A stretch of 64,000 nucleotides of DNA from positions 62,001-126,000 of the forward strand of contig JAFEDS010000021.1 in assembly GCA_018241505.1 (NCBI GenBank), given 5' to 3'. The notes beneath the pieces are model-generated. The model saw only the letters and a program-made list of their open reading frames with translations. It ran no database searches and was not told the DNA's origin. This DNA comes from Pseudomonadota bacterium. Its GTDB lineage: Bacteria > Pseudomonadota > Gammaproteobacteria > Steroidobacterales > Steroidobacteraceae. Within the stretch, counting starts at the first letter, position 1. The number at the start of each line of letters is the position of its first letter. Position numbers and translations under genes: made by a program. Below are positions 20,068 to 36,494 of this stretch, in pieces.

Positions 20068-20154
20068 GCGTGCAACGTCTTCGGGCGTGACTATTTCATC
20101 ATTTGGTGCTGCGGCCGTTAGCGTGCCGCCGGGCGCGCATGCTACTCAATAGGC

Positions 20155-21480
20155 ATGAAGCAGAACAACATCGGCCGGCGCTCATTCCTTAAATCCTCGG
20201 CCCTGCTGGCCTCCATTGGACCGTTTGCGCAAGGTGCGGCGCCGCGATCCAGCCGGGCCCCCGGACCTGAAATCTTCTTCACCCGGGACGAATACATCAC
20301 GCGATGGACGCGCGTTCAGGCCGCGATGACTGCCGCAGGCTACGAGAATCTCCTGGTATGGCAGCGGTCCGCAAGCGCGTATGACCGGATCGGCGATGTC
20401 TACTGGCTCACGAACTTCTATACCAACGGCACGGGTCAGGATCCCTACAGTGAGGAGCTCGACGAGCCCTGGACGTTCGCGGCTGTACTCATGCGCAAGG
20501 GTCACGAGCCCGAGTTGCACATCGGCCTGCCGGAAGGAGCCTACGACGCTGCCAAGATCTTCTGCGGCAAAGTCGTCACGCACACACCGCACCAGACATT
20601 GAAGTTCGCCGAATATCTGCGCGCCGAGAAGATTCGAGGCCGGGTCGCTGTAGTGGGCGATGACGTCCTTCCCGGGAAGTTGGATCGTATTCTCCGCGCC
20701 AACACACCGAAGATCGAATGGGTTGCGGATGATACCTTTCTCGAGGCGCCCCAACTCATCAAGAGTCCCCGCGAGTTGGAGGCGTTTCACACCGCCGGTA
20801 CGTTGGTCACAGACGCCTTGAACGTGGCGATGGAGGCACTGATTTCAGGAGAACGGGCCTGCGAAGCAGCCGGCCGCGCCGCCGCCGTCATCATGCGTGG
20901 GGGCGGTGGGTTTCACCGTATATCCATCGCCCACGGCCCGGCGTTACAGCGCCCGCTGAGCTTCGATTTCTACGGCTACAACATGACCGCGCCGAGTCCT
21001 GGCGATGTGATTTCGATGTGGATCTACGGGCCGATCTTCGCGGGCTATTGGCTCGACCCGGGACGAACGGCCATCTGCGCGAAGCGCCCGACCGGTGCTC
21101 AAAAAACACTGGTTGAGAGCGGAGCCAAGCTCGTTGATGACATGGTCAAGGCGGTCGTACCGGGGATGACGGCCAGGGAGCTGGGTCTGCGTTGGGCCGA
21201 AATTGCCCGCAGCGGCGGCTACTTCGACGCTGAGAAGGACGAAATGTTTGGTCACGGGCTGGGCGCCAGCTTTCCGGCGTATGTGCTGCCGACGGGCGAT
21301 AGTGAAATCGGACCGTTCGGTTACAAGCGCCTGCAGGGACCCATCAAACCCGGAATGGTGCTGGCAGCCGAGGCATTTCTGACGCGCCCCGGCGTGGGCG
21401 TCGCGGCGTTCGAGCGCAACTTCGTAGTCACGGCTACGGGCGTTGAGGTGCTCGATAAGACGCCGATGCTTTTCTGGTAG
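20155..21480 (+). CDS. Tat-exported M24-fold (Xaa-Pro peptidase/creatinase-like) protein
   Basis: A 441-residue protein with a twin-arginine signal (GRRSFLK, residues 7-13). The N-terminal creatinase-like domain is followed by the pita-bread M24 domain. Four of five usual metal ligands are visible: Asp301 in GYWLDPGRT, His367 in FGHGLG, Glu406 in AAEAF and Glu420 in FERNF. The first Asp, expected at 289 by alignment with GDxVxxDxG, is Trp. It may therefore be a non-peptidase (creatinase-like) or use one metal. It converges with, and overlaps by 47 bases, the AraC gene, placing it beside the Rieske cluster. Confidence 0.75.
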   Translation: MKQNNIGRRSFLKSSALLASIGPFAQGAAPRSSRAPGPEIFFTRDEYITRWTRVQAAMTAAGYENLLVWQRSASAYDRIGDVYWLTNFYTNGTGQDPYSEELDEPWTFAAVLMRKGHEPELHIGLPEGAYDAAKIFCGKVVTHTPHQTLKFAEYLRAEKIRGRVAVVGDDVLPGKLDRILRANTPKIEWVADDTFLEAPQLIKSPRELEAFHTAGTLVTDALNVAMEALISGERACEAAGRAAAVIMRGGGGFHRISIAHGPALQRPLSFDFYGYNMTAPSPGDVISMWIYGPIFAGYWLDPGRTAICAKRPTGAQKTLVESGAKLVDDMVKAVVPGMTARELGLRWAEIARSGGYFDAEKDEMFGHGLGASFPAYVLPTGDSEIGPFGYKRLQGPIKPGMVLAAEAFLTRPGVGVAAFERNFVVTATGVEVLDKTPMLFW

Positions 21481-22540
21481 GAGTGGCGTTGCTGCGCACC
21501 TCGCGCGGCAGAACGGCGAAGTGCTTCTTGAACGCCGCGGTGAAATTCGTCGGCTCTTCGTAGCCGGTGCGCTCCGCAATCTCACTGACGGCCAGGTCGG
21601 TCGTTTCCAACAGCCGCCAGGCGTTGCGCAGCCGCAATTCCGTCTGATACTCGTGGACGGACACGCCGAACTGCTGTTTGAAGCCGAAATGCAGTTTGTT
21701 GCGGTTCATCCGGGTCTGGGCACACAGGGTCGCCAGTGTGAGCGCCGCCGCGGGGTCTGCTTCTATCTGATCCCGCACCTGCAGCAGTCGCGCGCGCTCC
21801 TGTTGAGTGATCCGGATCGACATGCGGGTCTCGGGCCTGGCGTGGCTCCAGTCGTGCATCAACAGCCGCAACAAATCGAGCGCAAGTGCCCTGACCGCCA
21901 GCCTGTGCCAGCCGCGGCTGGCCCGGGTGTTGAAAAATCGGCCGGCATGGGCGAGTGCGGGCCTGGATATCGGGAAGTGCCCCATGACGGTCTCACCGCG
22001 CGACCAGCTTGAAAGCAGAATGGCCGGCAGCTCGTCATCGGCAAGCTCGAGCCCGTTGCGCAAGTAGCTGCGGGTCATTGCCAGGGAGCAGTAACGGTAA
22101 GCAACACCCCCTTTGAACTGGGCGGTGACCGGTTCCCCCGGCGCCCGGATCATGAAGGAGCAGCGGGTACTCTGATCCGATACATGACTTTGCCGTGCGA
22201 CATAACCGGCTTCGCCGGCGAATGCGATCCTCAACCTCACTGAATAGTCGCCGCCGGTGGCGGTCAGGCGCCAGTCCTGATCAATGACCGCGTCGGTGAT
22301 GTGCAGGCACAAGCCGCGCTCGATTTCGTGAATCTCCTCGTATCCCGATCTGAACAGGACGGGGATGGGGGTGCCGCGCCTCTGCAGCGTGCGTCCATAA
22401 ACGATGCTGTCGATTCCTTCGCTGATGGCGGGATCGACCTTCTGGATTTCCGCGAGCTTGCGCCATAGATCGGTTTCACCCGGCAGGACCAGGATGGGTG
22501 CGGGCATGACAGGCGGCCCCAAGGCTTGTGACGATCTCAT
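21434..22540 (-). CDS. AraC-family transcriptional regulator
   Basis: A 368-residue regulator. The N-terminal 250 residues form a ligand-sensing domain with no family I can name. The C-terminal AraC HTH covers about 255-355, with LATLCAQTRMNRNKLHFGFKQ and VSEIAERTGYEEPTNFTAAF followed by FKKHFAVLPREVR. It is divergent from the Rieske operon and is its likely regulator. ATG 22540 is used; an internal ATG at 22507 is also possible, as neither has a strong ribosome site. Confidence 0.85.
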   Translation of the reverse strand: MRSSQALGPPVMPAPILVLPGETDLWRKLAEIQKVDPAISEGIDSIVYGRTLQRRGTPIPVLFRSGYEEIHEIERGLCLHITDAVIDQDWRLTATGGDYSVRLRIAFAGEAGYVARQSHVSDQSTRCSFMIRAPGEPVTAQFKGGVAYRYCSLAMTRSYLRNGLELADDELPAILLSSWSRGETVMGHFPISRPALAHAGRFFNTRASRGWHRLAVRALALDLLRLLMHDWSHARPETRMSIRITQQERARLLQVRDQIEADPAAALTLATLCAQTRMNRNKLHFGFKQQFGVSVHEYQTELRLRNAWRLLETTDLAVSEIAERTGYEEPTNFTAAFKKHFAVLPREVRSNATPTRKASASYRAPQRP

Positions 22541-22578
22541 TATTCACCGTTATAAAGCCTCGTGCACGCGCATTTCGC

Positions 22579-22598
22579 CGTCGCCAATTCCGGTGACG
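22579..22598. promoter_or_regulatory. Imperfect inverted repeat between the AraC and Rieske genes
   Basis: CGTCGCC and GGTGACG (six of seven complementary) are separated by six bases in the 134-base divergent region. It is a candidate operator, though AraC proteins more often use direct repeats. Confidence 0.25.
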
Positions 22599-22674
22599 AT
22601 TTCATCATCTCGGGTCGCCGTCATTAACGTCGACCGTGTCTGCGCCGGTAGATTTCAATGCGGGGGTAATTCAT

Positions 22675-23898
22675 ATGTATACGTCGTCCGAGCTGCACAG
22701 ACTGGTTCGTGAGCATCGACCGGGTTGGACTCTGGCGCAGCTTTTTTACACGGATCGGGACATCTTCGAGGTGGAGGTCGAACGCTTCCTGGGCCCCCAA
22801 TGGATGGTGGCGGGTCACGTCTCGGAGATTCCGAATCACGGCGACTATTTCGTTTTTGAGGCTCTTGGCGCGTCGGTCATTGTCGTTCGAGCGGCCGACG
22901 GCGAGATTCATGCGCTCCATAACGTGTGCCGGCATCGTGGGGCGAAGATTTGCGAGCAGCCCTCGGGCAGGGCGTCTCTTCTGCGTTGTCGCTATCACGG
23001 TTGGTCCTATCGACTCGACGGGCAGATCGCCGCATGGCGGCACATGCCGGAGCATCTCAACAAGAGTGAGCACGCGCTACGCCGGTGCGGCGTGTCGATC
23101 TTCGAAGGCCTGATTCTCGTCAGCCTGATGCCTGAAAAGGCACCTGATCCTGCGGTGATGTTGCAGCATGTCCGGCCGTATTGGAGTCGTTACGAGCTGG
23201 CGAAGACCCGAACGGCCGCAATCCGCCATTACCGTCTCCAGGGAAACTGGAAGCTCGGAATCGAGAATAATCTCGAGTGCTACCACTGCCTGCCGTCTCA
23301 TCCGGAATACACCACAACCAACGCGTTCGTGCGCGCCGACGAGCAGACGTCCGAGACAGTCGTCGAGTCGTTTGCAGCGTATCGCCAGTCCTGGGAAGAA
23401 CGGATGCGTGCTGCGGGGACGCTTACCGGGCGCAGCGAGATGATTACAACAGGCGGACAGCCGTGCCGCGCTGGAACTTGGCCGCTGGCGCCGGGAAAGC
23501 TGACGGGATCGCGGGACGGGCAGGGCGTCGCTCCCCTGTTGGGCCGGGTCGGCGGCTATGACGAGAGCGTCACCACGGGTTGCATTGGGTTTCTGTCCTA
23601 CATGGGCGCCATGTGCGACCACGCGGTTCAGGTGAACTATCTGCCGCAGAGTGTAGATGTCACGCTGGTCGTCTTGCGTTGGTTGGTCAGAGCCGACGCC
23701 GTCGAAGGCCGTGACTATGACGCAGACAACCTCTGTTGGCTGTGGGATGAGACGACCCGCCAGGACAAAAGCATCATTGAATTGAACGCAGCCGGAGTCG
23801 GCTCGCGCGGTTATGTCCCGGGCCCGTACTCGAACCTGGAGTCGATGACGCAGGACTTTGTCGACCGCTATCTGAAGCTCATGAGCGAGCCCGCATGA
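22675..23898 (+). CDS. Rieske non-heme iron oxygenase, alpha subunit (quaternary-amine subgroup)
   Basis: A 407-residue oxygenase. The Rieske centre is Cys85-x-His87 and Cys105-x2-His108. The mononuclear iron site has His204 and His209 in NNLECYHCLPSHPEY. The residue that bridges the two centres is Glu201 rather than Asp, as in carnitine monooxygenase CntA and related betaine or stachydrine demethylases. That points to C-N oxidation of a quaternary or other amine, though this is an inference. ATG 22675 has GGGGG eight bases upstream; an earlier GTG lacks a ribosome site. No reductase component is encoded in the cluster. The stop overlaps the MFS start by four bases. Confidence 0.88.
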   Translation: MYTSSELHRLVREHRPGWTLAQLFYTDRDIFEVEVERFLGPQWMVAGHVSEIPNHGDYFVFEALGASVIVVRAADGEIHALHNVCRHRGAKICEQPSGRASLLRCRYHGWSYRLDGQIAAWRHMPEHLNKSEHALRRCGVSIFEGLILVSLMPEKAPDPAVMLQHVRPYWSRYELAKTRTAAIRHYRLQGNWKLGIENNLECYHCLPSHPEYTTTNAFVRADEQTSETVVESFAAYRQSWEERMRAAGTLTGRSEMITTGGQPCRAGTWPLAPGKLTGSRDGQGVAPLLGRVGGYDESVTTGCIGFLSYMGAMCDHAVQVNYLPQSVDVTLVVLRWLVRADAVEGRDYDADNLCWLWDETTRQDKSIIELNAAGVGSRGYVPGPYSNLESMTQDFVDRYLKLMSEPA

Positions 23899-25133
23899 CG
23901 GTTTATGTAGTACTGCTGCTCTTTCTCGCCAACGTTGCCAACTATGGGCAGCGCATGATTGTGTCGATTCTGCTGCCTGCCATCAAAAGCGAGGTGATGT
24001 TGACCGACGGGCAGTTGGGTATTCTCGTCGGCGGCGGATTTGCGCTCTTCTACGCTCTGGCCGGTGTGCCGCTGTCCCGCTTCGCCGATCGGCATGGGCG
24101 TGTGAAGTGGTTGTCGATTGCTATTGCGTTCTGGAGCGTGGCGACGGGCATGTTCGGGCTCGCGCGCAGCTTTGTACAGATGCTCGCGGCGCGCGTTGCG
24201 CTGGGCGTTGGTCAGTCGGTCTGTATCCCGGTTTCCCACTCGTTACTGATTGATCATGTGCGTCCGGAAAGCCGTCCTTTCGCGTTGGGTATCCATTCGA
24301 CCGGCGGAGTAGTGGGTGCGACGCTGTCGTTGGTCCTTGGTGGCTGGTTGGAGGCGAGGGTGGGCTGGCGGCAGGCGCTCACGCTGAGCGCCGTATCCGG
24401 CGTGGTGCTCGCACTGTTGGTTGCCGTAACACTGCGCGACCCGCGCAAAGCTACTCCTGATGCCGGAGTTGTTGTTGATACGGCGCTGCCGCTGCGGACG
24501 GTCATCCGGCGCCTTCTGTCGCTTCGATCCTATGTTCTGGTGCTGTTGGCGGTGTGCATAAGCATGCTCGTTGAGTTCGGGTTGAGCCAATGGCTGCCGT
24601 CATACTATGTCCGTGAGTTCTCGCTTCCGGTCGCCGAAGTCGGTTTTCGGTACGGCCTCACGGCAGCGATTGGAGGCATCCCCGGAAGCCTGTTGGGCGG
24701 ATGGCTCACCGCGCGTCTCACGAGGCACGACATACGCTGGCTCGTCTGGTTCCCCGCAATGATGTACACGCTGGCGCTGCCAATCGGGCTGAGCATGTTG
24801 TTGGCGTCGTCCGTACAGATCGCGCTGCTGCTCAATGGCCTGTATGCATTTACGGTCTACACAACCAGTGGCGCCCTGTGGGCCGCATGCTTTGCACACG
24901 TTGCCCCCGCCATGCGCGCCACCACGAGCGCCGTTACGCTCTTCGTGGCTGGTGTCACCGGCATGGCGCTGGGGCCGACCCTGGTCGGCGGAATGAGCGA
25001 TGTACTCAGCTCCTCGCAGGCGGGCGGCCATTCCCTACGAACTTCCCTGGTGTTTGTTGAGTGCCTGGCGGTGGGCGTCATTGTGTCGCTGCTGTTCGCC
25101 GGCCGGTTCATAGCGCGCGAGGATCAACCATGA
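23895..25133 (+). CDS. MFS transporter (Spinster-like)
   Basis: A 412-residue membrane protein with about twelve hydrophobic segments. The first helix runs into NVANYGQRMIVSILLPAI, like the NYxDR motif of Spinster-type carriers; the loop 2-3 motif is SRFADRHGRVKW, and ARVALGVGQS lies in helix 4. It should move a small organic molecule across the inner membrane. Four-base ATGA overlaps at both ends couple it to the Rieske and FAD-oxidoreductase genes, so its substrate is probably the cluster's substrate or product. Confidence 0.88.
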   Translation: MTVYVVLLLFLANVANYGQRMIVSILLPAIKSEVMLTDGQLGILVGGGFALFYALAGVPLSRFADRHGRVKWLSIAIAFWSVATGMFGLARSFVQMLAARVALGVGQSVCIPVSHSLLIDHVRPESRPFALGIHSTGGVVGATLSLVLGGWLEARVGWRQALTLSAVSGVVLALLVAVTLRDPRKATPDAGVVVDTALPLRTVIRRLLSLRSYVLVLLAVCISMLVEFGLSQWLPSYYVREFSLPVAEVGFRYGLTAAIGGIPGSLLGGWLTARLTRHDIRWLVWFPAMMYTLALPIGLSMLLASSVQIALLLNGLYAFTVYTTSGALWAACFAHVAPAMRATTSAVTLFVAGVTGMALGPTLVGGMSDVLSSSQAGGHSLRTSLVFVECLAVGVIVSLLFAGRFIAREDQP

Positions 25134-27019
25134 CCGAATCCATCTCCCGTCGCGACTTTGTCAACGGCGTACTGGTCGGCGCCGGGGCAGGTTTGTTGAC
25201 GCGCGCCGCGCCGGCGGCGACCGCTACGGCAGCGCCGGACTACGGGCCATCAGGCTCAGCTTGGACCGGCTATGGCGGCGTCGGGGACTATCGCTGGTCC
25301 AACGGCAACACCGAAGCAGTGCGGGATGCCGCACACGGGATTCGCGATCACCGCTATCCCGATCCCGATCTGCCGGTGCGGGAGACCTACGACCTGTTGG
25401 TCGTTGGCGGTGGCTTTTCGGGCACGACCGCGGCCTACGAATTCAACAAGCTCAGAAAGCCCGGCCAGAGCTGCCTCGTACTCGAGAACCATCCGATTTT
25501 CGGTGGCGAAGCCAAACAGAATGAGTTTGACGTCGACGGACACCGATTGGTGGCGCCGCAAGGGTCCAACGGCGCTCTGGCGGTAAAAGAGAACGACCAC
25601 ATCACCGGTCGTTACGAAGTGTACGCGGAGTACTACCGCGAGCTTGGAATGCCGGCGCACTACGATCTCGAACCTGTCGCCGGAGGCGCTGAAAAATACA
25701 CTCTGCCCAACGATCATTTCGATCCCATGCTGCTCGAGCGGCAGTACCCGACGGGTTACTTCTTCAAGGGCCATGGCTGGTCCGCCAATCCCATCGCGAC
25801 GGGGTTTACCAACACCCCGTGGCCTGCGGCAGTGCGCCGGGAGATCGACGACTTTGCCAACAATCGGCGTGACCTCGTCTCAAAACAGGCGGATGCCGAT
25901 CGTTGGCTCGACTCCATCACTTACTTCGAGCTGCTCGACAAGTTAGGCTACGGTCCGGAAGTCAAGCGGTATATCGATCCGCTGCTGGGAGTTGGCAACT
26001 TCGGAGTCTGCGGTAACGCGGTATCCGCCTACGCTGCCAAGCGACTCACCCTTCCCGGGACGATTCCGAGCAACACACCGAACCGCTTTGTCGATGTCTC
26101 GGTAGTGTCCTTTCCCGGCGGAAACGCCGCAATCATGCGCAAGATGTGGGCCCGCATGCTGCCGGATGCGATCAGCGGTGATGGTTCGCTGGCGGCGGTT
26201 GCCACCGGCGCAGTCAATTTCGGTGCGCTGGATCGTGAGGGTAGCCCGATCCGTCTTCGACTGCAGTCAACCGCAGTTCATGTGCGCCACGATGGCGATC
26301 CGGCCAGCGCGGGTTCAGTGCTGGTGACGTATGTGCAGGGCGGAAAGCTATTTCGCGTCCGGGCCAAGGCTGTCGTCATGGGCTCGGGCGGATGGGTCAA
26401 TCGAAATATCGTCCAGGACCTGCCGCCCGCCCACATTGAAGCCTACAAGCACTTCCGCTATGGCCCGGTGCTGACAGCCAACGTCGCTGTACGGCATTGG
26501 CGCTTCTTTGACAAGTTGGGATTCATTGCAGCGAGGTGGTTTTCGGGGCTCGGGTGGCATGTGTGCGTCCGGCGCAATGTCGCTCTGCGACCGGGGGCGC
26601 CGCCGCTCACTCCGGACAGCCCTCTCGTACTGACTTTCTACATCCCCATTCTCCAGCCTGATGTCGATCCGATGGCACAGGGGATGGCCGCTCGCGCACA
26701 GCTTCTGTCCACTTCCTACGCGGAGTATGAACGGCAGTTGCGTGAGCAGATGTCCGAGATGTTCGGACCCTCGGGATTCGATGCGCGGCGTGACATCGCC
26801 GGCATCGTGCTCAACCGCTGGGGCCATGCTTACATGGCTCCGTACAAGGGCTTCTTCTTTAGTACCGACGGCCAGCCGGCTCCCCCTGAGGTCATTCGCA
26901 AGCCGCACGGCCGCATCTTCTTTGCACATTCGGAATTGCAGGGAAACATGAACATGGCGCACGCAATGCTGGAAGGCAGACGCGGGGCGCGAGCCGCCGT
27001 GGAGGCCTGCAAATCATGA
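25130..27019 (+). CDS. Tat-exported FAD-dependent oxidoreductase, spermidine-dehydrogenase-like
   Basis: A 629-residue flavoprotein. The twin-arginine signal SRRDFVNGVLVGAGAG (residues 6-21) matches the start of spermidine dehydrogenase SpdH, and a Rossmann FAD-binding motif VVGGGFSGTTAAYEF follows near residue 95 with FGGEAKQNEF soon after. SpdH-type enzymes oxidise polyamines or similar amines in the periplasm; the specificity of this one is not proven. The real start is ATG 25130, overlapping the MFS stop. The stop overlaps the TonB receptor's ATG. Confidence 0.8.
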   Translation: MTESISRRDFVNGVLVGAGAGLLTRAAPAATATAAPDYGPSGSAWTGYGGVGDYRWSNGNTEAVRDAAHGIRDHRYPDPDLPVRETYDLLVVGGGFSGTTAAYEFNKLRKPGQSCLVLENHPIFGGEAKQNEFDVDGHRLVAPQGSNGALAVKENDHITGRYEVYAEYYRELGMPAHYDLEPVAGGAEKYTLPNDHFDPMLLERQYPTGYFFKGHGWSANPIATGFTNTPWPAAVRREIDDFANNRRDLVSKQADADRWLDSITYFELLDKLGYGPEVKRYIDPLLGVGNFGVCGNAVSAYAAKRLTLPGTIPSNTPNRFVDVSVVSFPGGNAAIMRKMWARMLPDAISGDGSLAAVATGAVNFGALDREGSPIRLRLQSTAVHVRHDGDPASAGSVLVTYVQGGKLFRVRAKAVVMGSGGWVNRNIVQDLPPAHIEAYKHFRYGPVLTANVAVRHWRFFDKLGFIAARWFSGLGWHVCVRRNVALRPGAPPLTPDSPLVLTFYIPILQPDVDPMAQGMAARAQLLSTSYAEYERQLREQMSEMFGPSGFDARRDIAGIVLNRWGHAYMAPYKGFFFSTDGQPAPPEVIRKPHGRIFFAHSELQGNMNMAHAMLEGRRGARAAVEACKS

Positions 27020-29226
27020 CTCGTTCTCTAATTTTGATGAGCACATTGACCTGTATGGGAATGGCCGCCTCCGCCGCCGCGGCTGATGACGACACGTTAG
27101 GCGAGGTTGTCGTTACCGCGCAGAGACGTTCCGAGCGGCTGCAGGACGTTCCTGCGGCGATTACGGCATTGAATGGAGATTCTCTCAACGAATTGCACCT
27201 GCAGGGCAACGCTGATCTGGCGCAGCGGGTTCCCAGCCTGTCATTCGATGTGTTGGGCCCCGGTGAGTCGACGCTTTCGATCCGCGGGTTGGGCACGGCC
27301 TACGGATTGGCTCCCGCCGTCTCGTACTACTTGAATGAGACACCCTTGGACATCCGGACGGATGGTTATGCGGGTGCTCCTGACATCGACTTCTTCGACG
27401 TCGAGCGCATCGAAGTGCTGCGCGGGCCGCAGGGAACTCTGTACGGATCGAGTGCAATGGGCGGTGCGCTGCGCATACTCACGGTGCAGCCGAACCCGGC
27501 AGCCGTCGCCGTCAATGCGGAAATCGGCGGTTCCTACATGGAGCGGGGTGGGGCTGGATATTCGGCCAAATCTGCAGTGAACCTCCCTCTGTCGACGGAC
27601 GCCGCGGTCCGTCTCGTAGGTACGTATGAGCACGTTCCCGGTTATATAAACCGCGTCCTCCCGGGGGACTACAGCGCAGCGGAGCCCGTGACCCCGCTCG
27701 CCGCGCGACGCACAAACGACGCGGACATCAAAAGCGCGCGCGTCATTGCAAGTTGGAAACCCTTTGATGGGCTGACGATTACGCCCAGCTTCGCCATCTC
27801 CCGCATCGAGGCCTCAGACAAGCTGACAACGTACAGCAACCTGCCGGACTTTACGATTGCCGGCTACATCCCTTCACCCACCACGAGCCGCCTGACCGTG
27901 GGCAATCTGGCCGTGACTTACGATGCCGGCTTTGCCAGCATTCTGTCATCGACCTCAGTGCTCTCGCGGGCGGTCGACGCGCTGAATGACTTCACGTTGT
28001 TCTGGGCGAACCTGGCACCTGCGTTCGGTCTGACCTATCCACCCAACACACCGGGGACCGACCTCACCACGTCCCGCAATTCCGGCTTCGTACAAGAAAT
28101 CAGGCTGACCTCACCCGCGGAACAGCGGCTCCGCTGGGTCGCTGGCGTGTACTTCAGCCACTTCCGCCAGCATTCGACGGAAACCACCGGAAGCGCGGAT
28201 TTCGCGGCGGCGATCGGCCAGACCGACAGCCCGATCCTGTATCACTTCGATCAGGCCGTCATTGACCAGCAGGCTGCGGTCTTTGCCGACCTCACTTATA
28301 AAATTCTGCCGCAGGTCGAGATCACCGCGGGAGAACGTTATTACGAGCTGCGCGACAGTCTGGAAAACGAGCAGGATGGCGCGATTGCACCGCCGAGCCA
28401 GCCGCTGGTGCATGCGAAAGCCAGCGGCAGCAGCCCCCGTGTTGTGTTGACTTACCATCCGGTCGCTGACGCCACTGTCTATGCGACTGCGGCGCGCGGC
28501 TACCGCCCGGGCGGTCCGAACGTGGGCCTTCCAGAGGGTGTGGGCTGCACACTCAATAGCGCGTATCGGCCGCTGTACGATCCCGATTCCGTCTGGAACT
28601 ATGAGTTGGGTGCCAAGTCCGAGTTCCTGCAGCGCCGGCTGTCTGTCGATGTGGCGGTGTACCGCATCGACTGGAAGAACGTGCAGCAGGCGATCACCGA
28701 TCCCGGCTGTGGTTCTCTCTTTGTTGCCAACGCCGGTAGCGCCAGAAGCAAGGGTGTCGAAGCGGAAATCAACGCTCGGCCGCTCGATGCCTTGCGTGTA
28801 TGGTTGAGTGGGTCATACACGGACGCGAAGTATCAGTCCATAGCGGCTGCGTTTCAGGGTTCGAGCGCGGTGCTCGCTGGTGATGCGGTACCCGATGTTC
28901 CGAAGCGCAAAGTGAATGTAGGCGGCGAGTACACACGGTCGTTCGGAAACTACCAGAGCTATCTGCGGCTCGACTGGAGTCACCTGGGCGCGGTGCCAAC
29001 CGGCTTTACGTACAAGGACGTGCGTCCGGCATACAGCACGCTGGATGGCGCGATTGGAGTGCGGGGTGAGCGCTACGAGGTGTCCTTGTATGGGCACAAC
29101 CTTACCAACACGGACGGCATCCTGAGCATCGGGGTAGGTGCTACTGACAGTTACGGAGCGGTGTTCAATTCGCGCATCTTCATTCCGCCACGTACGGTGG
29201 GAATCGATCTCAAGATGCATCTCTGA
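27016..29226 (+). CDS. TonB-dependent outer-membrane receptor
   Basis: A 736-residue receptor with a signal peptide ending near residue 23 and a TonB box GEVVVTAQRR directly after. The plug domain (about 40-160) has LSIRGLGTAYG, VERIEVLRGPQGTLYGSSAMGG, and the beta barrel follows to the end, with the C-terminal strand GIDLKMHL. It should import a large or scarce compound across the outer membrane. Its place inside the Rieske operon, coupled by a four-base overlap, makes it the probable uptake step of that pathway. GGAGG lies ten bases before the ATG. Confidence 0.92.
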   Translation: MTRSLILMSTLTCMGMAASAAAADDDTLGEVVVTAQRRSERLQDVPAAITALNGDSLNELHLQGNADLAQRVPSLSFDVLGPGESTLSIRGLGTAYGLAPAVSYYLNETPLDIRTDGYAGAPDIDFFDVERIEVLRGPQGTLYGSSAMGGALRILTVQPNPAAVAVNAEIGGSYMERGGAGYSAKSAVNLPLSTDAAVRLVGTYEHVPGYINRVLPGDYSAAEPVTPLAARRTNDADIKSARVIASWKPFDGLTITPSFAISRIEASDKLTTYSNLPDFTIAGYIPSPTTSRLTVGNLAVTYDAGFASILSSTSVLSRAVDALNDFTLFWANLAPAFGLTYPPNTPGTDLTTSRNSGFVQEIRLTSPAEQRLRWVAGVYFSHFRQHSTETTGSADFAAAIGQTDSPILYHFDQAVIDQQAAVFADLTYKILPQVEITAGERYYELRDSLENEQDGAIAPPSQPLVHAKASGSSPRVVLTYHPVADATVYATAARGYRPGGPNVGLPEGVGCTLNSAYRPLYDPDSVWNYELGAKSEFLQRRLSVDVAVYRIDWKNVQQAITDPGCGSLFVANAGSARSKGVEAEINARPLDALRVWLSGSYTDAKYQSIAAAFQGSSAVLAGDAVPDVPKRKVNVGGEYTRSFGNYQSYLRLDWSHLGAVPTGFTYKDVRPAYSTLDGAIGVRGERYEVSLYGHNLTNTDGILSIGVGATDSYGAVFNSRIFIPPRTVGIDLKMHL

Positions 29227-29243
29227 AATCGACAGGGGGTCCA

Positions 29244-30176
29244 ATGTTGCGGTTGATGTTTTTGCTGATGATGGTGGGCTTGGCTGCGGCGGCGCAAGCT
29301 GCCGTGATAGAGCGCCAGGATGGTTTCGTGAACGCCCACGGGGTACTCATCTACTACGAAAGCATTGGACAGGGCGCGCCGCTGATGATCCTGCACGGTG
29401 GTCCGGGCTCATCGCACGGTTATTTCCTGCCGCACTTGCTGCCCCTGGCGGCTGGGCGCCGCCTGGTCTTTATTGACGAGCGCGGCTCGGGCCGGTCGCA
29501 GCGCCTACCGGATCCCAAGGGTTACACTCTCGACAACATGGTGAGTGATGTCGAGGACGTTCGCGTCGCGCTCAACCTGGGCAAAATCGACGTCCTGGGC
29601 CATTCGTTCGGCGGACTGCTGGCGCAGGCCTACGCGATCCAACACCCCGATGCGGTTCGTCGCTTGATTCTGGCGGGTACCGGCTCGAGCGCGGCCCGCA
29701 TCGACGCGGACTTTGTGGGCATCAAGAATGCCCTGGAGCCAGGCTTGCGCAAGCGCATCGAGGCATTGGAACACAGCGGTATATTCGATCAGAGCGGGGC
29801 TCAACTCCAGGAGTACCGCAAGCTGGCCGACGAGGCGGAGGGGCCCTACAACTTTTATCGTCACCCACCGTCGTGGGACACGGCCGGCGAGGAGCTGGGC
29901 TGGGATGTTTTGCGCGAGATGTGGGTGACCCGCAGCGATTTCCATATAGACGGGAATCTGAAGGGCATCGACCTCACGCCTGGCCTGAGGCGATTGCAGA
30001 TCCCGACGCTCATCATCTACGGTGACCACGATCTGGTGAGCACCGCGACGGCACAGGAGACGGCCGCGGCGATTGCCGGCTCACGGGTTCTCAAAGTACG
30101 CGACAGTGGCCACAACCAGTTTGTGGATCAGCCGGTTGTGTTTCTCGGGGCCGTAGCGGATTTTCTAGGGCACTAA
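29244..30176 (+). CDS. Exported alpha/beta hydrolase, proline iminopeptidase (S33)-like
   Basis: A 310-residue protein with a Sec signal ending near residue 20 (AQA). Its hydrolase core has HGGPGSS (51-57), nucleophile Ser121 in GHSFGG, an acid in YGDHD and a final His in DSGHNQF. The HGGPG motif and cap domain are typical of S33 prolyl iminopeptidases, which release N-terminal proline, but amide or ester hydrolases share the fold. It follows the TonB receptor by 17 bases with a GGGGG site, so it is the last gene of that operon. It overlaps the phytanoyl dioxygenase gene end by 12 bases. Confidence 0.85.
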   Translation: MLRLMFLLMMVGLAAAAQAAVIERQDGFVNAHGVLIYYESIGQGAPLMILHGGPGSSHGYFLPHLLPLAAGRRLVFIDERGSGRSQRLPDPKGYTLDNMVSDVEDVRVALNLGKIDVLGHSFGGLLAQAYAIQHPDAVRRLILAGTGSSAARIDADFVGIKNALEPGLRKRIEALEHSGIFDQSGAQLQEYRKLADEAEGPYNFYRHPPSWDTAGEELGWDVLREMWVTRSDFHIDGNLKGIDLTPGLRRLQIPTLIIYGDHDLVSTATAQETAAAIAGSRVLKVRDSGHNQFVDQPVVFLGAVADFLGH

Positions 30177-31019
30177 TCTGAGGAGCACCCGCTTCACCCG
30201 ATCGGCAATGCACGTGGGATGCAGACGGTACCGCCATTTCCCGAATGCTCCAAAATGAAGTATCCAGGCACGCCGATACTCATTCGTACGGTTGGCCCCT
30301 GCGCAGTGAAATGTGAGCGGATGATGGATTGCGACGCCTCCGGCGGTCACGGGGCAGGGGCGGGCGTCGGTCTCGTCCACATCGGCTAGCGCGAGCGTTG
30401 AGCCGAGGGTGCGGTTGCTCGAGGCGGCATACCTCTTCGATACCTCTGTGTGCGGAATGAAGCCCCTGCGATGACTGCCGGGGATGTACAACATGCATCC
30501 ATTCTCGATGGTGGCCGCCTGCAACGGGATCCAGAAGTGGATTGAGCGTAATGGAATCGGGGTGTGAGCGTACGCCTCGTCCTGGTGCCAGTGAGTGGGG
30601 GCGTTGCTTTGCGGCAGCTTGTAGATTGCATGGTCAAAGAGGAAGCCGGCAGGCGCACCTAGAAGCTCACGTGCGATAGCTCTGCAGCGCGCAAATACCG
30701 GAGTGTCTTTCAGGCGCGGCTCGAGGGCGGTGGGCTGATTGATTTCCGGCGAGCGCAATGGCGTCCCGGACCGGTGCGCGCCGGATAGCTCAATGGCGAG
30801 CTCGCCTAGCGAATCGAAGCGTGCGAACAACGGGTCCAGCAAAGAACCGATGTGGGCCAGTTCCTCGGCAGTGGTGATATTGTCCAACGACAGATAGCCA
30901 TCGTGGTCGAACTTCGTTTTCAGCAGTCCTGGCACGGTATTCGTCAATACTGCGGCCTGATTCACTTCGAACCTGCCCTCATGTGAGCGAATGTCTGCGG
31001 CGGATGATTGCCCGGCCAT
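30165..31019 (-). CDS. Phytanoyl-CoA dioxygenase (PhyH) family protein
   Basis: A 284-residue Fe(II)/2-oxoglutarate oxygenase. The metal triad is visible: His145-x-Asp147 in HWHQDEAY and distal His238 in HHPLTFHCAG, with an Arg-containing NEYRRAW that may bind 2-oxoglutarate. PhyH enzymes hydroxylate acyl-CoAs and many natural products; bacterial members include ectoine hydroxylase. It is convergent with the S33 hydrolase and may extend the same pathway, although it is on the other strand. Confidence 0.88.
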   Translation of the reverse strand: MAGQSSAADIRSHEGRFEVNQAAVLTNTVPGLLKTKFDHDGYLSLDNITTAEELAHIGSLLDPLFARFDSLGELAIELSGAHRSGTPLRSPEINQPTALEPRLKDTPVFARCRAIARELLGAPAGFLFDHAIYKLPQSNAPTHWHQDEAYAHTPIPLRSIHFWIPLQAATIENGCMLYIPGSHRRGFIPHTEVSKRYAASSNRTLGSTLALADVDETDARPCPVTAGGVAIHHPLTFHCAGANRTNEYRRAWILHFGAFGKWRYRLHPTCIADRVKRVLLRLVP

Positions 31020-36038: not shown

Positions 36039-36494
36039 TCAGGCTGTCTCGCTGCGCTGCACGGCGCGGTGTGTTTGAGATTTCATCAGCTCGGCAAGCT
36101 CGTGAAGCTCTGACGCGACCGCGGGCAGGAGGTCATCCAGTGTTACGATACCCACGAGCGCGCCGTTGGCGTCGGTCACGGGAGCTCTGCGCACGGCTCG
36201 CGCGTTCATGGCGTCGATACCATCCGAAAGGCTCGTCTCAACACCTAGGCACAGCGGATTTGTCGACATGACATCGCCGACGGTCAGGCAATGCAGATCG
36301 GCCCCCTTGAACACCTGGCCGCGCACGATGTCACGGTCCGTCAACATCCCGACCGCTCGACGCTGTGGGTCGTGAGGGTTCAGCACGACCAATGAGCCCA
36401 CCTTGTTTTCACGCATGAGCATGGCAGCCTGCGCCAAGGGCTGGTCGGGGTGTGTGACAATTACACGGGTCGTTCTGATGTCGCCGATATTCAT
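36039..36494 (-). CDS. CBS-domain pair protein
   Basis: A 151-residue protein made almost wholly of two CBS motifs: VGMLTDRDIVRGQVF near residue 48 and VGIVTLDDLLPAVA near 113, with the conserved RRAPVTDANG between. Such Bateman modules bind adenine nucleotides and report energy state. No catalytic domain is attached, so it probably regulates a partner. It is divergent from a second CBS gene across a region with a 16-base palindrome. Confidence 0.9.
   Translation of the reverse strand: MNIGDIRTTRVIVTHPDQPLAQAAMLMRENKVGSLVVLNPHDPQRRAVGMLTDRDIVRGQVFKGADLHCLTVGDVMSTNPLCLGVETSLSDGIDAMNARAVRRAPVTDANGALVGIVTLDDLLPAVASELHELAELMKSQTHRAVQRSETA

Follow-up and report, generated by a model that had tools for sequence, protein, structure and literature searches.

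We analysed a 64,000-nucleotide stretch of DNA (the window) from a Pseudomonadota bacterium of the Steroidobacteraceae (assembly GCA_018241505.1, contig JAFEDS010000021.1, positions 62,001 to 126,000), and here describe eight open reading frames (ORFs) at positions 20155..31019. They encode an M24-fold protein, an AraC-family regulator, a Rieske oxygenase, a major facilitator superfamily (MFS) carrier, a flavoprotein resembling spermidine dehydrogenase (SpdH), a TonB-dependent receptor (TBDR), an S33 hydrolase and a PhyH-type oxygenase. Seven of the eight form what we regard as one unit, which we think rather likely to serve the uptake and degradation of an N-alkylated amine.

Organization of the locus

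All eight ORFs, including the TonB receptor, MFS, AraC and S33 genes named in a first-pass annotation of this DNA, were verified in place and matched to named families: PF00557 for M24, HTH_18 for AraC, Rieske and Ring_hydroxyl_A for the oxygenase, MFS_1 for the carrier, and FAD flavoprotein, TonB receptor, alpha/beta hydrolase and PhyH families for the remainder. The M24 gene precedes the oppositely oriented AraC gene, the Rieske–MFS–SpdH-like–TBDR–S33 run reads forward, and PhyH lies on the reverse strand at the far end. The four-base overlaps annotated across the run are real, with an ATGA at each of the Rieske–MFS, MFS–SpdH and SpdH–TBDR junctions; a 17-base gap separates TBDR from S33, and S33 and PhyH converge with a 12-base overlap. 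Comparison by eye with orthologues from a congeneric genome, G043, places the likely Rieske and AraC starts inside the longest ORFs (Table 1).

Table 1. Genes and operator-like sites of the locus, in window positions
Feature	Position	Strand	Remarks
Operator-like site 5' of M24	20087..20123	+	GTGACTATTTCATCAT-N14-GTTAGCG
M24-fold protein	20155..21480	+	Tat-type signal
AraC-family regulator	21434..22507	-	Divergent from Rieske operon; likely start ATG 22507; longest ORF from 22540
Second, weaker occurrence of the 16-base site	22528..22543	+	2 mismatches; upstream of likely AraC start
Operator-like site 5' of Rieske operon	22593..22629	+	GTGACGATTTCATCAT-N14-ATTAACG
Group V Rieske oxygenase alpha subunit	22675..23898	+	Motif ENNLECYHC; likely start ATG 22675; longest ORF from GTG 22636
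MFS transporter	23895..25133	+	
SpdH-like flavoprotein	25130..27019	+	Tat-type signal; predicted haem-b ligands H69 and H566
TonB-dependent receptor	27016..29226	+	
S33 / proline-iminopeptidase-like hydrolase	29244..30176	+	Sec-type signal
PhyH-type oxygenase	30165..31019	-	Convergent with S33; probably outside the unit

A seven-gene block and its upstream site

The neighbourhood search in related genomes that the first-pass annotation had suggested recovered the block once more, in G043 (record JAFEFN010000003.1 of a metagenome-assembled proteobacterium, fetched twice as L069 and L089), where an AraC gene stands beside a Rieske–MFS–SpdH–TBDR–S33–M24 run, seven genes together. Identities between the two genomes are 56, 62, 63, 67, 70, 47 and 49% for AraC, Rieske, MFS, SpdH, TBDR, S33 and M24, respectively. 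The M24 gene of G043 has moved to the operon end, behind S33, and the 20 kb around the block contain no match to five genes that flank the window block (M28, LOG, YSC84, GGDEF and ADH). Because the seven genes recur together across this rearrangement and between different flanks, their comparison gives good support to treating them as one unit. Among the 50 loci scanned, several of which end at contig ends, the full block occurs only in the G043 record, and at E 1e-30 the M24 protein is present in 2 of 148 relatives, the window genome and G043 themselves. In searches of 398 phylum genomes, M24 at the same threshold (at most 4 candidates scored per genome) matched only the window genome itself, and TBDR at E 1e-90 matched two, one being the window genome.

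PhyH, also counted as a member by the first-pass annotation, is probably a bystander: it has no match in the 20 kb at the G043 block, no operator-like site was found upstream of it, and its best solved match is EvdO2.

One site is common to the M24 upstream region and the AraC–Rieske intergenic region: GTGAC[T/G]ATTTCATCAT, identical at 15 of 16 bases where the best of 30 shuffles reached 13, and followed at equal spacing in both by TTANCG. The same two-block arrangement lies upstream of the Rieske gene in G043. The resulting pattern, ATTTCATCAT-N15-TTANCG, was derived from these three sites, and its zero mismatches there hold by construction; in the 7.88 Mb window genome it has two exact occurrences, before M24 and before the Rieske operon; allowing one mismatch adds no further place, and allowing two adds five. 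Its single match in G043 with up to two mismatches is the one before the Rieske gene, as expected if M24 has joined the operon there. The 16-mer taken by itself is not overwhelming; what carries the argument is that the pattern is bipartite, is rare in two genomes and stands in front of precisely these genes. TTANCG may represent either a −35 element or a second half-site; a sigma-70 scan found one candidate against a shuffle mean of 3.1. We infer that the AraC regulator acts at the shared site. Absence of co-regulation, named by the first-pass annotation as fatal to its proposal, is countered, though only in silico, by this common upstream site.

The Rieske oxygenase

By alignment, the bridging glutamate of the Rieske protein is E214 (numbered from GTG 22636) in the motif ENNLECYHC, beside which C215 and C218 form a CxxC at the iron site, and the position of CntA residue 203 holds an asparagine (N212), not a tyrosine. 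In PMC7948474 and PMC10952381, Group V Rieske oxygenases are marked by a Glu bridge and, in some members, a Cys-X-X-Cys by the iron site (the latter from PMC10952381), and are described for quaternary ammonium substrates; the members named there act on carnitine, choline, betaines and benzalkonium. The bridging residue of CntA is given as E205, and Asn in place of Tyr or Phe at position 203 is described as a mark of the demethylating clade Vb, which includes GbcA and Stc2 (PMC7948474).

The first-pass annotation had called the protein CntA-like with a bridging Glu; the bridge stands, and the likeness gives way to Stc2 and 3n0q, which match at 215 bits over about 400 residues compared with 107 bits over about 200 for CntA. 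We rejected assignment to CntA on the basis of the Asn and the phylogeny. In a full-length tree the window and G043 proteins occupy their own long branch, sister with fair support (93/92) to 31 mostly ENY-type proteins. A second tree, extended by Stc2, 3n0q and CntA and built on only 220 N-terminal columns, again gives a two-member branch (100/100), outside an 11-row clade (99/98) with Stc2, 3n0q and a further Rieske protein of the window genome (from locus L168); the window protein does not join CntA, whose placement rests on long branches. The GbcA model NF058607 scores 276.7 bits, below its curated cut-off of 670. A tryptophan aligns with W353 of Stc2 in our own count on the 4qup alignment, offset from the Cys pair. 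The window genome (7.9 Mb) holds 18 Ring_hydroxyl_A matches in all, two of them in this gene.

The SpdH-like flavoprotein

The annotation of an SpdH-like flavoprotein with a twin-arginine translocation (Tat)-type signal held up. The protein matches spermidine dehydrogenase 7d9j at E 7e-51, and by profile at E about 1e-81 over nearly its whole length. In our count on the alignment, H69 and H566 fall on H54 and H562, the axial haem-b ligands of Pseudomonas aeruginosa SpdH (PaSpdH) according to PMC12564564. The middle third (profile positions about 150–300) aligns poorly with PaSpdH, and for this reason the substrate of SpdH is not transferable to the window protein.

Of six sphingomonad loci with ORFs listed, three (L092, L093 and L118) have a Pfam-checked TonB receptor gene directly 5' of an SpdH relative, and in L094 a similar ORF, not Pfam-checked, occupies that place. 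The pair also occurs in sphingomonad loci that have no window-like Rieske gene. In L118 (Rhizorhabdus) an AraC gene accompanies the pair; no operator-like site was found at that locus. By eye, the SpdH-like proteins of L090, L091 and L094 carry a lipobox-like Cys after the twin-arginine (RR) motif, unlike the window protein.

The S33 and M24 hydrolases

The S33 protein scores 166.4 bits with TIGR01250, narrowly under the cut-off of 167.65. Prolidases and aminopeptidases P of the M24 fold bind metal through five ligands, D, D, H, E and E. The first Asp is absent from the M24 protein in the window, in G043 and in three Rhizobiaceae relatives, and the other four (D301, H367, E406 and E420) are kept in all six alignment rows. 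We rejected a working dinuclear prolidase because of the absent Asp, from which we also conclude that the protein is probably no ordinary dipeptidase. Its best solved matches are Xaa-Pro dipeptidases, with creatinase and DoeA also among the profile matches; a structure model from two rows reached a pLDDT of 46.

In the window, export signals were recognized by eye on both proteins, of Sec type on S33 and of Tat type on M24. Judged likewise, neither protein has a signal in G043, where the S33 gene begins immediately after that of the TonB receptor and M24 is coupled to S33 through an ATGA. The two hydrolases thus seem, from their N termini, to have changed compartment together between species, which suggests that they act in succession and shows that hydrolysis has no fixed place. 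The order put forward in the first-pass annotation, periplasmic hydrolysis and then dealkylation inside, is accordingly doubtful, S33 and M24 looking cytoplasmic in G043.

M24 relatives occur in 15 plasmid records; identity is 32–34% across ten listed records. Four plasmid loci were examined (L149–L152); they are conserved amino-acid ABC transporter / 5-oxoprolinase islands of Rhizobiaceae, which point to small-molecule hydrolysis in a suggestive rather than decisive way. These islands also carry a second Xaa-Pro peptidase family protein and a VOC protein.

Amine-related genes in related loci

The window genome has two further Rieske clusters. L167 (contig 7, 550001–568000), a kit parallel to that of the window, combines AraC, a Group V Rieske oxygenase with the motif ENARECYHC, a FAD monooxygenase-type and a DMGDH-type protein, an alpha/beta hydrolase, an acetamidase/formamidase-family protein, MFS and TBDR. 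L168 is a betaine cluster of known type, with a GbdR-like regulator (420 bits, cut-off 480), a GbcA-like Rieske oxygenase (435, cut-off 670), a DMGDH-type protein and a sarcosine oxidase alpha subunit above its cut-off.

Among relatives, G059 (L137) has a run of SpdH, Rieske, a PotF-like substrate-binding protein, TBDR and acid phosphatase, and on contig 5 of G043 (L153, 622001–642000) a Rieske gene, an AmaA-like oxidase, MADH-type heavy and light chains (both below cut-offs) and an SpdH-like gene lie within about 13 kb. This second amine island of G043 spans about 16 kb when a prolyl oligopeptidase and an amidohydrolase are included. Group V Rieske genes also have PotF-, PotG- and PotH-like genes, aminotransferases and FAD enzymes as neighbours, by profile in L135 and by similarity to L135 in L126 and L129. 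The aminotransferases of these three loci are GntE/GSA-like and the FAD proteins CrtO-like; the Rieske frame of L126 (G065) contains one in-frame TAG. Rieske genes lie near DMGDH-type genes in L143–L145. Altogether 9 of the 20 Rieske loci of relatives (L126–L145) carry a DMGDH-type (≥200 bits), PotF/G-type (≥400 bits) or SpdH gene, with thresholds set after the scores were seen and with four of the loci (L134, L135, L137 and L143) also having supplied profile rows. A TonB receptor occurs in 7 of the 20.

Proposed function and alternatives

On balance we favour an AraC-controlled regulon for the uptake and degradation of an N-alkylated, quaternary or tertiary, amine. The basis, all in silico, is gene content, block conservation, the shared site, the motif class of the Rieske protein, the haem ligands and the export-signal-like N termini. 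The TonB receptor would carry the compound into the periplasm, where the exported SpdH-like flavo-haem dehydrogenase would oxidize a C–N bond and deliver electrons to the respiratory chain; substrate or product would reach the cytoplasm through the MFS carrier; and the Group V Rieske oxygenase, with a reductase encoded elsewhere, would oxidatively remove an N-alkyl group. S33 and M24 would act one after the other to hydrolyse an ester or amide bond, in this organism in the periplasm but in G043 in the cytoplasm. Transport direction, reaction order and substrate class are our predictions. The amine uptake and degradation unit of the first-pass annotation is thus upheld by the block, the shared site, the Group V marks, the haem ligands and, in part, the amine neighbours; its reaction order is not.

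Several observations weigh against this proposal. The block is present in just one other genome, and the absences in the phylum searches are incomplete because each genome contributed 2–4 scored candidates. The G043 site matches the window sites no better than shuffles do (14/16 against a best of 14, and 13 against 13), and the 31-base pattern with up to three mismatches has four window matches, a number that 1 of 100 shuffles reaches. When 1690 tile-strands of the window were compared with the AraC–Rieske intergenic sequence, 15/16 was attained at the M24 upstream tile and also at 36076–36150 (two overlapping tiles; GATTTCATCAGCTCGG); the latter region has no two-block match with up to three mismatches and is probably a chance match. 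The Rieske protein joins neither CntA nor the Stc2/GbcA clade in the tree, so its predicted chemistry is transferred by motif, and the cluster contains no reductase gene, with four PF00970 places elsewhere in the genome. The SpdH-like family is large, with at least 8 matches in the window genome (8 candidates scored) and matches in 47 of 148 relatives at E 1e-40, and the distant PaSpdH is the sole functionally named solved full-length relative. Eleven of the 20 Rieske loci have no amine-linked neighbour at the thresholds used. To our knowledge, few members of the SpdH-like family have been tested.

This breadth of the SpdH-like family leaves some room for a non-amine substrate, such as a terpenoid, an aromatic or an ester, of which the Rieske enzyme would hydroxylate a carbon, with the flavoprotein, from a diversified family, serving as a dehydrogenase of alcohols or of another kind; TonB and Rieske genes serve aromatic degradation too, at the level of literature titles and abstracts. 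We consider this unlikely, given that the Glu bridge and CxxC mark Group V with its quaternary ammonium substrates (PMC7948474, PMC10952381) and that amine genes surround part of the related loci. Somewhat less probable again is a substrate made by conjugation of proline betaine, or of some other N-methylated cyclic imino acid, from which S33 and M24 would free the imino acid, the Rieske enzyme demethylating it as Stc2 does and the SpdH-like protein oxidizing the secondary amine. The near-threshold TIGR01250 score, the Xaa-Pro dipeptidases among the M24 matches, and the Asn and Trp shared with Stc2 all fit; yet TIGR01250 is a broad subfamily, M24 without its first metal Asp is unlikely to be an ordinary prolidase and also matches creatinase and DoeA, and the Rieske protein falls outside the Stc2 clade. 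The proline idea is a guess by analogy with the fold families of the two hydrolases. That separate small units merely adjoin one another here, as the separate window transcripts of M24 and PhyH and the sphingomonad SpdH–TBDR pairs might suggest, is very improbable in view of the seven genes kept together across rearrangement in G043 and of the rare site shared by both transcription units.

We also raise tentatively, as a rather unlikely reading, an undescribed catabolic route for a conjugated betaine imported through TonB. This one compound would be attacked both by a flavo-haem amine dehydrogenase in the periplasm and by a Group V Rieske demethylase of a new subclade in the cytoplasm, with the metal-site-degenerate M24 as a non-peptidase amide hydrolase and with two hydrolases that switch compartment together between species. 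If the regulon is as we propose, Group V Rieske chemistry would, through a TonB-linked kit that includes an exported flavo-haem amine dehydrogenase, reach larger or conjugated amines. The cluster would also offer a regulon that is concrete and open to test, predicted operator included, and the related loci point to a broader family of these kits within the bacterial order.

Comparison with known systems

We found the gene combination nowhere described in the literature searched, judged at the level of titles and abstracts, in agreement with the first-pass annotation, which knew of no such pathway. With PaSpdH (7d9f–7d9j) the flavoprotein has in common a near-whole-length match, an N-terminal RR motif and both haem-b histidines, and differs in sitting in an operon with a TBDR and a Rieske oxygenase. 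The GbcA/Stc2 systems of Group Vb supply the best full-length solved relatives of the Rieske protein and share its Glu bridge, CxxC and Asn at the CntA-203 position; the window protein differs in its separate tree branch and its sub-threshold GbcA model score, and its cluster has TBDR, MFS, SpdH-like and two hydrolase genes instead of a DMGDH-type gene. The carnitine monooxygenase CntA (Group Va) likewise has the Glu bridge and CxxC, but carries the aromatic Tyr203, matches over half the length only and is not joined by the window pair in the tree. A parallel in gene content is the paralogous L167 cluster, which shares AraC, a Group V Rieske oxygenase, MFS, TBDR, an alpha/beta hydrolase, an amide-hydrolase-type protein and a FAD dehydrogenase, and has DMGDH-type and acetamidase/formamidase-family proteins where the window has SpdH-like and M24; its Rieske and TBDR proteins are 33% and 28% identical to those of the window, and the MFS carriers do not match at E 1e-4. 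Every part of the window unit comes from a known family, the combination is new as far as searched, and this sister cluster shows the same logic.

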